DNA from: Haloarcula halobia
GTDB taxonomy: Archaea > Halobacteriota > Halobacteria > Halobacteriales > Haloarculaceae
Direction of reading: 5' to 3'
Assembly (NCBI RefSeq): GCF_029338255.1
Contig: NZ_CP119787.1
Coordinates: 1,116,001-1,180,000, forward strand
Length of the DNA: 64,000 bases
The notes beneath the pieces are model-generated. The model was not told where the DNA came from. It searched no databases and saw only the letters and a program-made list of their open reading frames with translations. Position 1 is the first letter of the stretch; the number at the start of each line of letters is the position of its first letter. The position numbers and the translations under genes are program-made. Shown piece after piece: positions 28,744 to 31,441 of the stretch.

Positions 28744-29973
28744 TTACTTGTTCGTCCGGATGACGTCGAGGCCGTTGTTCTTCTCGACGGGGTCCTGCCC
28801 GCCGTCCGTCTCGCTGTAGCCCGTGTTGCGCCCGCCGTTCGAGCGCCCGGCGCTGCCACCGTTGAACGACTCGACGTTCTCGGAGGCGTCGAAGGAGGCG
28901 TCGTCACCGACCTCCTGGATCGCCTCACGGGACTTGTTGGCCTGCTTCTGGGTCGTCGGGCCCAGTACCTGCGCGGACTGGACGCCGGTCATGATGGCCA
29001 TGACGCGGACCTTGCCCTTGTACTCCTCCTGGATGCGCGCGCCCCAGATGACGTTGGCGTTGGCCTCGAGTCGCTCGGTGATGTTCTGGGCGATGCCCTC
29101 GGCCTCCTTCAGCGTGAGGTCCGGGCCGCCGGTGATGTGGACCAGGCCACCCGACGCGCCGCGGTAGTCGACGTCCAGCAGCGGGTGGTTCATCGCGTCC
29201 TTGACCACCTCCTGGGTCTTGTTCTTGTCCTGGGTCTCGCCGACCAGCATCACCGCGACGCCGCCCTGGTTCATGATCGAGGTCATGTCGGCGTAGTCTA
29301 AGTTGATGAGGCTCGGCTGGGTGATGGTCTCCGAGATACCCTTGACCGTCTCGGCGATGATCTGGTCCATCACCGAGAAGGCCTTGCCGATGGGCAGGTT
29401 CGGGACGTAGTCGAGCAGGCGGTTGTTGTCCAGCACGATGATGGAGTCGGCCTCGTTGCGCAGCTTCTCCAGGCCCTCCTCGGCTTTGACCGTCCGTGCG
29501 CGCTCGACGTTGAACGGCGTCGACACCATGCCGACGACGATGGCGCCCTGCTCCTTGGCGATCTTCGAGACCACGGGGGCCGCGCCGGTCCCGGTCCCGC
29601 CACCCATGCCGGCGGTGACGAACACGAGGTCAGCGTCGCCCAGCACTTCCTTGATAGTCCCCTGTGCCATCTCGGTGGCGCGCTCACCCATCGAGGGGTC
29701 GCCGCCGGCACCGAGTCCGTTGGTCAGGGACTTGCCGACCAGAATCTTCGTGTCGGCCTCGACCATCTTGAGGTGCTGTTTGTCCGTGTTGATGGCGACG
29801 GTATCCGCGCCTTCGACGCCGATGTTGTAGAGCCGGTTGACCGTGTTGTTCCCGGCTCCACCACACCCGACGATGACGATGCGCGGGTCACCGAACCCGT
29901 CGACGTCCTCGTCGGACAGCTGCTTTTGCTCCTGCTCGTCGCGTTCGAGGGCCTCGTTGACGATGTCCTGCAT
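28744..29973 (-). CDS. ftsZ2: Cell division tubulin homologue FtsZ2
   Basis: A GTPase that polymerises at mid-cell; haloarchaea use FtsZ1 and FtsZ2 together, with FtsZ2 needed for constriction. The 409-residue protein has the tubulin signature GGGTGTG at 124-130, [18 protein letters not shown] and the T7 loop NLDYADM. The N-terminus [16 protein letters not shown] and the C-terminal tail NNGLDVIR match haloarchaeal FtsZ2 rather than FtsZ1. The start lies 2 bases after the stop of cdrS, which identifies the known cdrS-ftsZ2 operon. Confidence 0.93.
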
Positions 29974-29975
29974 CG

Positions 29976-30158
29976 TTACACCCTCGCCCAGGTCCGCTTG
30001 CGTTTCTCGGAGGATTGCTCGGAGCTCTCCTGCTCGGCGAGCATCTCCCGGACTGCCGAACGGATGGCCTCACTCCGGTTGGGGTACTCCCCCGTCTCGA
30101 CCATCTGTTCGACCTCTTCGATCTGCTGTTTCGGAATCCGTAGTGTCACACGCTCCAT
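29976..30158 (-). CDS. cdrS: CdrS, short ribbon-helix-helix cell-division regulator
   Basis: A 60-residue DNA-binding protein with a single ribbon-helix-helix fold ([40 protein letters not shown]). In Halobacterium and Haloferax, CdrS is co-transcribed with ftsZ2 and controls cell division genes; the gene order here is the same. I start at ATG 30158 because the ribbon begins there; the 19 residues upstream in frame are not conserved. A long leader (about 130 bases) with palindromes and a nested stem lies upstream. Confidence 0.9.
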
Positions 30159-30176
30159 ATTTTTTGTTCCCTTTGG

Positions 30177-30183
30177 GTAAGAC
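30177..30183 (+). promoter_or_regulatory. GTAAGAC half-site close to the cdrS start
   Basis: The heptamer GTAAGAC (GTCTTAC on the coding strand) is about 20 bases upstream of the cdrS ATG. The same word occurs as a palindrome at 30274-30291 and singly at 30361-30367, so it is a candidate regulator half-site. Confidence 0.4.
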
Positions 30184-30219
30184 GGTCCGACCGGGCCGAT
30201 TCTCGCCCCGCCCATTCGT

Positions 30220-30277
30220 TTACACAGCGAATCCGCCCGACTGCGGGGGTCACACCCCCACGACGTCCGCTGTGTAA
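30220..30277 (-). promoter_or_regulatory. Nested stem-loop in the cdrS-ftsZ2 5' leader
   Basis: TTACACAGCG (30220-30229) and CGCTGTGTAA (30268-30277) form a perfect 10-base inverted repeat. Between them lies GGGGGT-CAC-ACCCCC (30245-30259), a 6-base perfect hairpin that extends to 8 with one wobble in the transcript. On the minus strand both would fold together in the leader of the cdrS-ftsZ2 mRNA. The function is unknown: it may control translation or stability, or bind protein. Confidence 0.5.
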
Positions 30278-30291
30278 GACAGCCGTCTTAC
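30274..30291. promoter_or_regulatory. Palindrome GTAAGAC-AGCC-GTCTTAC at the cdrS transcription start
   Basis: Perfect 7-base arms around a 4-base centre. A strong TATA stretch on the minus strand (30312-30323, ttatatattaaa on the plus strand) predicts transcription starting near 30290, right at the edge of this palindrome. A dimeric ribbon-helix-helix protein such as CdrL or CdrS would be a natural ligand; this is inference. Confidence 0.55.
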
Positions 30292-30311
30292 GCAGACGAA
30301 ACAACAGACCA

Positions 30312-30323
30312 TTATATATTAAA
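30312..30323 (-). promoter_or_regulatory. TATA box of the cdrS-ftsZ2 operon
   Basis: TTTAATATATAA when read on the minus strand, the strongest TATA-like stretch near cdrS. It lies about 155 bases before the cdrS ATG, implying a long structured leader instead of the leaderless arrangement most genes here show. Confidence 0.55.
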
Positions 30324-30394
30324 ACTTACGGTGAGTGTCATACACGCACCCGGGAACGCAGTCTTACGCTCTGTGTGTCGTGTAAACGCCGTAA

Positions 30395-30994
30395 TCAGGT
30401 CTGGTCGAGCACGTCCGCAGCGGGTGTTCGGCGACCACAGCTCGGGCAAAAGCCCCAGTCCGACCGGAGCTCGTCGCCGCAGTCACAGAACACGCGTCGG
30501 GACGCCTTCTCACCGCAATTCGGGCAGTATACGTGCGACGACGCGACTTCCTCGCCACACTGGGCGCACGTTTTACGCGCCGTCGGTTCCGCGCGGTCCC
30601 GCGCCTCGGGTTCTGTCTTACGGGCCTCCTCGTCGTGTGATACACCCGCCGCAGGCCCGTTAGACACGTCCGACTCCGGTGTAGCCGATTCGGCCGTATT
30701 CACTGCCGAGTCGCCCGCTACCTTGATGTTTACGTTGACGTCCTGGGGTTCGCGGCGCGGGATGGCGTCGTCCAGGCGCTCGGCGATGATGCGGTCGACG
30801 CGATCGGCGATGAGTTCGTCGATGGACTCGGTGTCCGTCACCGACCCCTGGGGGCCCTCACGTTTTCCGCTCGCGTCCTCCTGCTCCCCGAGGTACGCTC
30901 TGAGCGCCTCACGCATGACCTCGCTCTTCGAGGCGTCGTACTCCTCGAGCTGCGAGATGAGGGCGTCGTCGGCCCGGAACGTGATCTTGCTCAT
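30395..30994 (-). CDS. cdrL: CdrL, long ribbon-helix-helix regulator with zinc ribbons
   Basis: A 199-residue protein. Residues 1-40 form a ribbon-helix-helix DNA-binding domain (MSKITFRADDALISQLEEYD, then SKSEVMREALRAYLG). After an acidic low-complexity middle, the C-terminus holds four Cys pairs (143/146, 157/160, 170/172, 183/186), i.e. two zinc ribbons. Gene position directly upstream of cdrS-ftsZ2 matches the haloarchaeal regulator CdrL, reported to act on the cdrS-ftsZ2 promoter. Its own TATA box is flanked by 9-base inverted repeats. Confidence 0.82.
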   Translation of the reverse strand: MSKITFRADDALISQLEEYDASKSEVMREALRAYLGEQEDASGKREGPQGSVTDTESIDELIADRVDRIIAERLDDAIPRREPQDVNVNIKVAGDSAVNTAESATPESDVSNGPAAGVSHDEEARKTEPEARDRAEPTARKTCAQCGEEVASSHVYCPNCGEKASRRVFCDCGDELRSDWGFCPSCGRRTPAADVLDQT

Positions 30995-31000
30995 CCGACT

Positions 31001-31051
31001 CGTCAGACACGATGTCGGCCGACTATTTTAATCTTCCCGCGATGTCTGACG
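31001..31051. promoter_or_regulatory. Inverted repeats flanking the cdrL TATA box
   Basis: CGTCAGACA (31001-31009) and TGTCTGACG (31043-31051) are perfect 9-base inverted repeats. Between them lie the AT-rich actattttaat (31022-31032, TATA for cdrL on the minus strand) and a GTCGGCCGAC palindrome (31014-31023). GTCAGAC differs by one base from GTAAGAC of the cdrS promoter. This suits autoregulation by CdrL, as inference. Confidence 0.5.
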
Positions 31052-31246: not shown

Positions 31247-31320
31247 CCGCCCTTAGCTCAGACTGGTAGAGCAGTCGACTGTAGATCGACTTGCCCCCCG
31301 TTCAAATCGGGGAGGGCGGA
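31247..31320 (+). tRNA. tRNA-Tyr (anticodon GTA)
   Basis: A 74-base cloverleaf without intron. The acceptor stem CCGCCCT pairs with AGGGCGG and A is the discriminator; the D stem is GCTC/GAGC. The anticodon stem GTCGA/TCGAC encloses the loop CTGTAGA with anticodon GTA at 31281-31283. The T arm is CCCCG-TTCAAAT-CGGGG. CCA is not encoded. A cttaag TATA-like element lies about 35 bases upstream. Confidence 0.93.
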
Positions 31321-31441
31321 CTTCTCCTGCGAACAACGTGAACAGTGAGTAGTCTATCTCGAGCCGATTTGACCACGAGAGTCGCAGCGCCGAGCGGAGA
31401 GAGGCAACCGTCTTTCATCTGTTCGAATCGGGGAGGGCGGA
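31300..31441 (+). repeat. Direct repeat of the tRNA-Tyr 3' end, candidate att site pair
   Basis: The last 21 bases of tRNA-Tyr (31300-31320) recur at 31421-31441 with a single mismatch (A to G in the T loop). tRNA 3' ends are the usual integration targets of archaeal viruses and plasmids, and a nearby copy is the classical trace of an integration event. Only 100 bases separate the copies and they hold no gene, so any element has been lost or reduced. Confidence 0.6.

Follow-up and report, generated by a model that had tools for sequence, protein, structure and literature searches.

Operator-like sites and a covarying leader suggest two-level control of cdrS-ftsZ2 across Halobacteriales

The timing of FtsZ-based division in archaea is poorly understood. 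The closest described system is the regulation by CdrL and CdrS, which concerns the same locus and the same proteins as the present analysis (Darnell 2020, PMC7439475; Liao 2021, PMC8406309) and shares with it the in vivo location of CdrL upstream of cdrS-ftsZ2 and of CdrS upstream of ftsZ1 and dacZ. ChIP-seq of CdrL in Hbt. salinarum revealed one reproducible genomic site, upstream of cdrS-ftsZ2, the exact letters of which are not given (PMC7439475). ChIP-seq of CdrS in Hfx. volcanii revealed 18 sites, including ftsZ1 (-50) and dacZ (-47), with none at the cdrS promoter or at cdrL (PMC8406309). At the RNA level, mRNA and ribosome footprints of cdrS-ftsZ2 diverge during growth of Hbt. salinarum (PMC8303175), and 72% of the transcripts of Hfx. 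volcanii are leaderless (PMC4983044). The text of Darnell 2020 (PMC7439475) names no operator motif, and searches within that text and within that of PMC8406309 found neither a leader fold nor a description of a leader function. Published work names the regulators; added here are a GTAAGAC array with its positions, which gives the exact letters of a candidate CdrL operator, its contrast with GTCWGAC, an intragenic site, and a leader with covariation support in haloarchaea, where structured leaders have been called not typical (PMC4983044).

More distant likenesses are found among RHH operators and structured leaders. Operators of the Arc/MetJ/CopG type are made of short pseudo-palindromic subsites on which neighbouring RHH dimers sit about one turn apart. 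The cdrS array likewise consists of short pseudo-palindromic subsites about one turn apart, but it spans the promoter, the leader and an upstream ORF, and its spacing varies. The operator of NikR is GTATGA-N16-TCATAC (PMC7055735); its half-sites are similar, and GTATGAC and GTCATAC variants occur at the cdrS array, where, however, the half-sites are 4 nt apart instead of 16 and recur 4-6 times within 450 bp. In sequence CdrS is similar to NikR, yet no nickel domain is found among the Pfam matches of CdrS or CdrL. With Rfam structured leaders and riboswitches, the cdrS leader shares a closed three-way junction just upstream of the start codon; unlike them it has no Rfam match (best E 0.06, far below the family threshold) and gives no sign of a ligand. 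A literature search for the motif letters in an archaeal context found no paper, the one match being unrelated.

We consider it rather probable that cdrS-ftsZ2 has a two-level control region, acting as DNA and as RNA, that is conserved across Halobacteriales. The array, its positions and uniqueness, the covariation and the site dichotomy were computed, and we infer the start site, the readers, the sign of regulation and a function of the RNA. The window, the 64-kb stretch of Haloarcula halobia DNA analysed here, carries on its minus strand cdrL (30994-30395), cdrS (30158-29976) and then ftsZ2; the paralogue ftsZ1 is sited elsewhere in the genome. The CdrL of the window, in which the Pfam domains CdrL_M and DZR score over the cut-off and RHH_1 under it, was included in the order-wide CdrL alignment A1. 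The features of the region are the following.

28744-29973, minus strand: ftsZ2 (Pfam Tubulin and FtsZ_C).
29976-30158, minus strand: cdrS, a 60-aa RHH regulator (translation; Pfam RHH_1, E 1.6e-8).
30142-30158, minus strand: first cdrS codons, ATGGAGCGTGTGACACT, conserved as nucleotides.
30167-30171, minus strand: GGGAA, weakly Shine-Dalgarno-like (alignment; GGGGAA in most relatives).
30177-30185, minus strand: site D with flank, CCGTCTTAC, 3′ strand of helix P1, pairing with GTAAGACGG at 30291-30283.
Approximately 30189-30214, minus strand: P3, hairpin between C and D (MFE fold).
30218-30229, minus strand: right arm of helix P2, CGCTGTGTAAAC, containing site C.
30245-30259, minus strand: apical hairpin inside P2, GGGGGT at 30245-30250 and ACCCCC at 30254-30259 (sequence and MFE fold).
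30268-30280, minus strand: left arm of P2, GTCTTACACAGCG, a covarying helix.
30274-30280, minus strand: site B′, GTCTTAC, right half of the palindrome and 5′ strand of P2.
30285-30291, minus strand: site B, GTAAGAC, at the predicted transcription start and 5′ strand of P1.
30311-30324, minus strand: TATA-box region, TTTTAATATATAAT (sequence).
30337-30343, minus strand: site A, GTATGAC (class GTMWKAC), 52 nt before B and just upstream of BRE/TATA.
30361-30367, minus strand: site A2, GTAAGAC, upstream of the promoter (sequence).
30395-30994, minus strand: cdrL, with RHH domain, CdrL middle region and double zinc ribbon (translation).
30615-30621, minus strand: site E, GTAAGAC, within the cdrL ORF at the RKT linker codons CGT AAG AC.
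31002-31008, minus strand: second GTCTGAC, near the cdrL start (GTCWGAC survey of cdrL promoters).
31044-31050, minus strand: GTCAGAC in the cdrL promoter, a putative CdrS-type site.

The palindrome (GTAAGAC 30291-30285, N4, GTCTTAC 30280-30274, minus strand) overlaps the predicted +1. A TATA-like TTTTAATATATAA begins at 30324 on the same strand, and in 183 of 197 loci the TATA start falls between -32 and -34 relative to B; since this places it 32-34 nt before the palindrome in almost all relatives, the +1 of cdrS-ftsZ2 is predicted near 30293, at the palindrome. Conservation was assessed on CdrS homologues gathered from the family and the order of the window, whose upstream DNA was extracted, the choice of loci being made by the CdrS protein alone and independently of the motif. 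The core GTAAGAC-N-GTCTTAC is present in 197/202 cdrS loci, with spacers of N4 (164), N5 (26), N6 (5) or N2 (2). The five exceptions comprise one masked locus, one with a single change in B, and three with GTATGAC as B′, a variant seen in two lineages.

The palindrome is also confined to this place. All five GTAAGAC 7-mers of the window fall inside 445 bp (30177-30621), and the exact palindrome occurs once in the 3.48-Mb genome. In a scan of whole Halobacteriales genomes, CGTAAGAC-N(4-6)-GTCTTAC matched in 279 of 292, with one site per genome among the matches listed, while a reversed control pattern gave 0 in every genome listed; several of the 13 genomes that lack a match come from a family whose spacer differs (N2). 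The clustering, the uniqueness and the order-wide occurrence against an empty control show that the palindrome is not due to chance. An earlier note on this DNA, prepared from the sequence, had described the palindrome at the mRNA start, as well as an inverted repeat and an inner hairpin further into the leader. All three lie on the minus strand where it placed them; the palindrome proved invariant and site-specific across the order, and its coincidence with the mRNA start agrees with the TATA spacing as a prediction. The idea of an isolated repressor site did not hold, as the palindrome is one member of an array that includes GTAAGAC-type sites at 30177, 30361 and 30615, which had been missed.

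Across 146 non-redundant loci, exact 7-mers cluster at constant positions, and elsewhere within 2.4 kb their number is near zero. One position, E, lies in cdrL; A immediately precedes BRE; B and B′ sit at +1; and the leader holds the other two, C about 49 nt past B′ and D not far from the start codon. An A-class site is found in 97% of the loci with cdrL, starting at -52 from B in most and at -53 to -51 in 123/143; the class GTMWKAC covers GTCATAC and GTATGAC, to which a few GTTTAC-like variants are added. Further upstream, GTAAGAC occurs in the -150 to -50 bins, the region of site A2, in about 30% of loci. Loci carry about 0.7 E sites each, at a distance of 300-350 nt upstream of B. Of 107 RKT codings, 105 use CGT for Arg, a codon that makes up 21% of all cdrL Arg codons; this excess suggests that nucleotides, and not amino acids, are selected. 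Site C is a degenerate GTAAAC in the window and GTAAGAC in most other genera. The GTMWKAC subsites are tandem, pseudo-palindromic and about one helical turn apart, as in RHH operators of the CopG/NikR type, with N4 predominating (164/197); the variation of B-B′ spacing (N2, N4, N5, N6) would be unusual for a strict dimer-of-dimers site.

The RHH proteins of the locus are the natural candidates for readers, and their sites appear to differ. GTCWGAC is found upstream of ftsZ1 in 25/30 species, often doubled with 4-nt spacing, and upstream of dacZ in about 15/24; GTAAGAC was not found in the upstream regions examined of these two CdrS targets, with 0/30 species for ftsZ1. The promoters of cdrL carry GTCWGAC in 89 of 140 loci against 0.08 expected, for the most part at the same position, -56 relative to the start of cdrL, with none in the loci of family f5 that were inspected. 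In cdrS promoters it occurs in only 5/156, and the search there for a CdrS-type operator, GTCWGAC upstream of BRE, thus failed. Because GTCWGAC marks CdrS targets and CdrL ChIP is confined to cdrS-ftsZ2, GTAAGAC is probably the operator of CdrL and GTCWGAC that of CdrS, the latter assignment being drawn from orthologous upstream regions. As a side observation, GTCWGAC in the cdrL promoter predicts a control of cdrL by CdrS that is unreported in the Hfx. volcanii ChIP. CdrS and CdrL are thus predicted to use distinct sites, and mutual regulation of the two paralogues is possible; the Hfx. volcanii ChIP, in which no such peaks were reported, confirms neither an autoregulation of CdrS nor its link to cdrL.

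Outside the order, cdrS promoters of 19 outgroup genomes carry copies of GTCAGAC or GTCTGAC in most cases. The GTAAGAC palindrome is absent from all 19, one of which has a single GTCTTAC, and a profile search of five outgroup genomes found no CdrL, as has also been published (PMC7439475). The simplest reading of these sequences is that GTAAGAC arose in Halobacteriales along with CdrL and that CdrS uses GTCWGAC.

The genomes devoid of cdrL complicate this picture. The CdrL profile, which recovers CdrL from control genomes at E 1e-42 to 1e-79, finds nothing comparable in eight genomes, each at least 94% complete. The palindrome and D persist in all eight, and an A-class site in seven of them. 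The expectation for a CdrL operator, loss of the sites upon loss of CdrL, thus fails in at least seven Halobacteria that retain the array; CdrL is not the sole reason for its conservation, and maintenance by CdrL alone is ruled out. In these species the upkeep of the array must fall to CdrS, to another RHH protein or to the RNA, and they constitute a natural experiment on its reader. Seven of the loci concerned belong to scattered Halobacteriales lineages, and in several the DNA that precedes cdrS, when translated, resembles tRNA repeats.

Such persistence is what would be expected if CdrS, rather than CdrL, were the main reader of GTAAGAC in an autoregulatory loop, as all genomes that lost CdrL possess CdrS; the outgroup promoters with GTCWGAC, in genomes where the search found no CdrL, also suggest an ancestral CdrS loop. 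This explanation is nonetheless unlikely, given that none of the 18 CdrS ChIP sites of Hfx. volcanii is at cdrS (PMC8406309) and that the CdrS targets ftsZ1 and dacZ carry GTCWGAC and lack GTAAGAC.

The second level concerns the leader, the existence of which, claimed earlier, is supported by the 5′ UTR shown for cdrS in Hfx. volcanii (PMC8406309). The inverted repeat (TTACACAGCG at 30220-30229 with CGCTGTGTAA at 30268-30277) is the flank of a longer helix, P2, one arm of which includes the right half of the palindrome. In an alignment of 87 leaders, from B through codon 4, P2 was defined as B′ plus the next 6 nt paired with C plus the preceding 6 nt. It displays 98 double-change cells against 44.4 (sd 6.6) in shuffles, a value reached by 0/500; every slid register scores lower than the true one, and swapping partners between species lowers the mean pairing from 5.38 to 4.31 of 8, by about 11 standard deviations. 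As the shuffles ignore kinship, Watson-Crick switches were counted by parsimony on the independent CdrL protein tree, which gave at least 8, 17, 12, 8 and 7 switches at five pairs (at least 52 in all). These statistics consist of shuffles and parsimony counts. The covariation resides in the flanks; within the 7-mer part of B′-C, C varies without compensation.

These switches bear directly on a purely DNA-based explanation, according to which the 7-mers are RHH operators whose alternating orientation produces the leader fold incidentally. B and B′ show no variation in 87/87 aligned leaders, the cdrS transcript does not include sites A and E, the lineages with GTATGAC as B′ retain the GTMWKAC class while breaking B-B′ pairing, and the CdrL ChIP site is upstream of the operon (PMC7439475), all in keeping with operators. 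However, the B′ and C flanks, about 50 nt apart and outside any site, co-change at least 52 times, for which a DNA operator gives no reason; this counts against the DNA-only explanation, which we regard as unlikely.

The other elements of the fold are supported to varying degrees. P1, formed by B with D, shows pairing in 97% of cells and slightly more double changes than expected, and its median pairing probability is 0.94 in 146 leaders. P3 is weak, being 54.7% paired with weak covariation in relatives. Across species, the region of the apical hairpin is more stably folded than its shuffled versions (mean z -2.0). From the whole alignment, RNAalifold recovered only the invariant B-B′ hairpin, which is uninformative on the RNA because of this invariance. 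As an RNA state of full leaders B-B′ was rejected, its median probability being 0.0, so that a simple switch between B-B′ and B′-C is not favoured thermodynamically; B-B′ could pair co-transcriptionally. Pairing of C with D, considered as an alternative to B′-C, shows no covariation and was discarded. The consensus modelled for the leader is a three-way junction of P1, P2 and P3 that holds the 5′ end and ends about 18 nt before the AUG. An RNA model of this consensus matches the cdrS leader, at E 5e-12 or better, in all of 57 genomes, which contain no comparable match elsewhere.

If the RNA alone were at stake, B, B′, C and D would be kept for P1 and P2, and the palindrome at +1 would be no protein site. 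The covariation of P2 with a consistent P1, the retention of the array after loss of cdrL, and the D variants GTCTTGC, which preserve G-U pairing to B, fit such a reading. It is nevertheless quite improbable, since site A (97% of loci, near -52) lies upstream of TATA and is untranscribed from this promoter, E is conserved at the codon level in cdrL, and CdrL binds the region in vivo (PMC7439475). Least probable is the form proposed in the earlier note, a repressor at the palindrome with a 10-bp stem directly blocking translation: the stem is real and covaries, but it ends about 60 nt before the AUG, no sequestered Shine-Dalgarno was found, and the surroundings of the start codon are for the most part predicted to be unpaired (mean 0.68), which does not support simple occlusion of the start.

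What stands of that proposal is the covariation of the leader stem across Halobacteriales, a check named beforehand and borne out by compensatory changes in P2; the 10-bp stem itself belongs to a three-way junction closed by B-D. Its two-level idea is partly retained through the invariant palindrome, the covarying stem and the in vivo location of CdrL upstream (PMC7439475), without the isolated site and the start occlusion.

In the two-level reading that we favour, the 7-bp subsites GTAAGAC/GTCTTAC (class GTMWKAC) would be read as DNA by the RHH regulators of the locus. A and B, about 52 bp or five turns apart, bracket BRE/TATA, and the B/B′ palindrome, with centres 11 bp apart, lies over the predicted transcription start, so that RHH dimers on A and B/B′ would bracket BRE/TATA and the start and thereby control initiation; occupancy of B/B′ should block or tune it. 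Further contributions, in the form of cooperativity or looping, could come from E and the leader sites. CdrL would be the likeliest reader where present, with CdrS or another RHH protein sufficing where cdrL has been lost, and CdrS itself seems to recognise a sister site, GTCWGAC, at ftsZ1, dacZ and cdrL. As RNA, the leader of roughly 135 nt would fold into P1 (B with D), P2 (B′ with C and flanks) and P3; the three-way junction would bury the 5′ end and probably sets the stability or translation of the operon mRNA. The divergence of mRNA and ribosome footprints in Hbt. salinarum (PMC8303175) would fit an effect of the leader on decay or translation. More tentatively, and with real doubt, the same letters may be used twice, as diverged CdrS and CdrL operators that wire a mutual FtsZ2 feedback and as leader RNA helices that tune translation or decay; if true, such dual-use letters would amount to an order-wide archaeal DNA-RNA switch for cell division.

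Several other observations were made at and near the locus. Codons 2-5 of cdrS (GAG CGT GTG ACA) are fixed at 96-99% across the order, although CGT, GTG and ACA make up 7%, 4% and 1% of their synonyms elsewhere in cdrS; these codons may represent one more DNA site (GTGTGAC) or may act at the level of RNA or translation. The first codons, ATG GAG CGT GTG ACA CT, are not conserved in outgroups. In 15 loci of family f5, the C-D interval contains a highly conserved GCGTCTGACAGGGGCGCGC, which includes GTCTGAC. One small-genome member of the order encodes, directly upstream of cdrL, a second RHH protein that resembles CdrL. Another genome has two close CdrS homologues on separate contigs, with 85% and 72% identity to the CdrS of the window, unless the bin is mixed. 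Upstream of cdrL in the window lies a tRNA-Tyr gene (31247-31321, plus strand), the 3′ end of which is repeated (GTTCGAATCGGGGAGGGCGGA) about 100 bp further on, at about 31420-31441; this repeat might have been left by an integration event at the tRNA.
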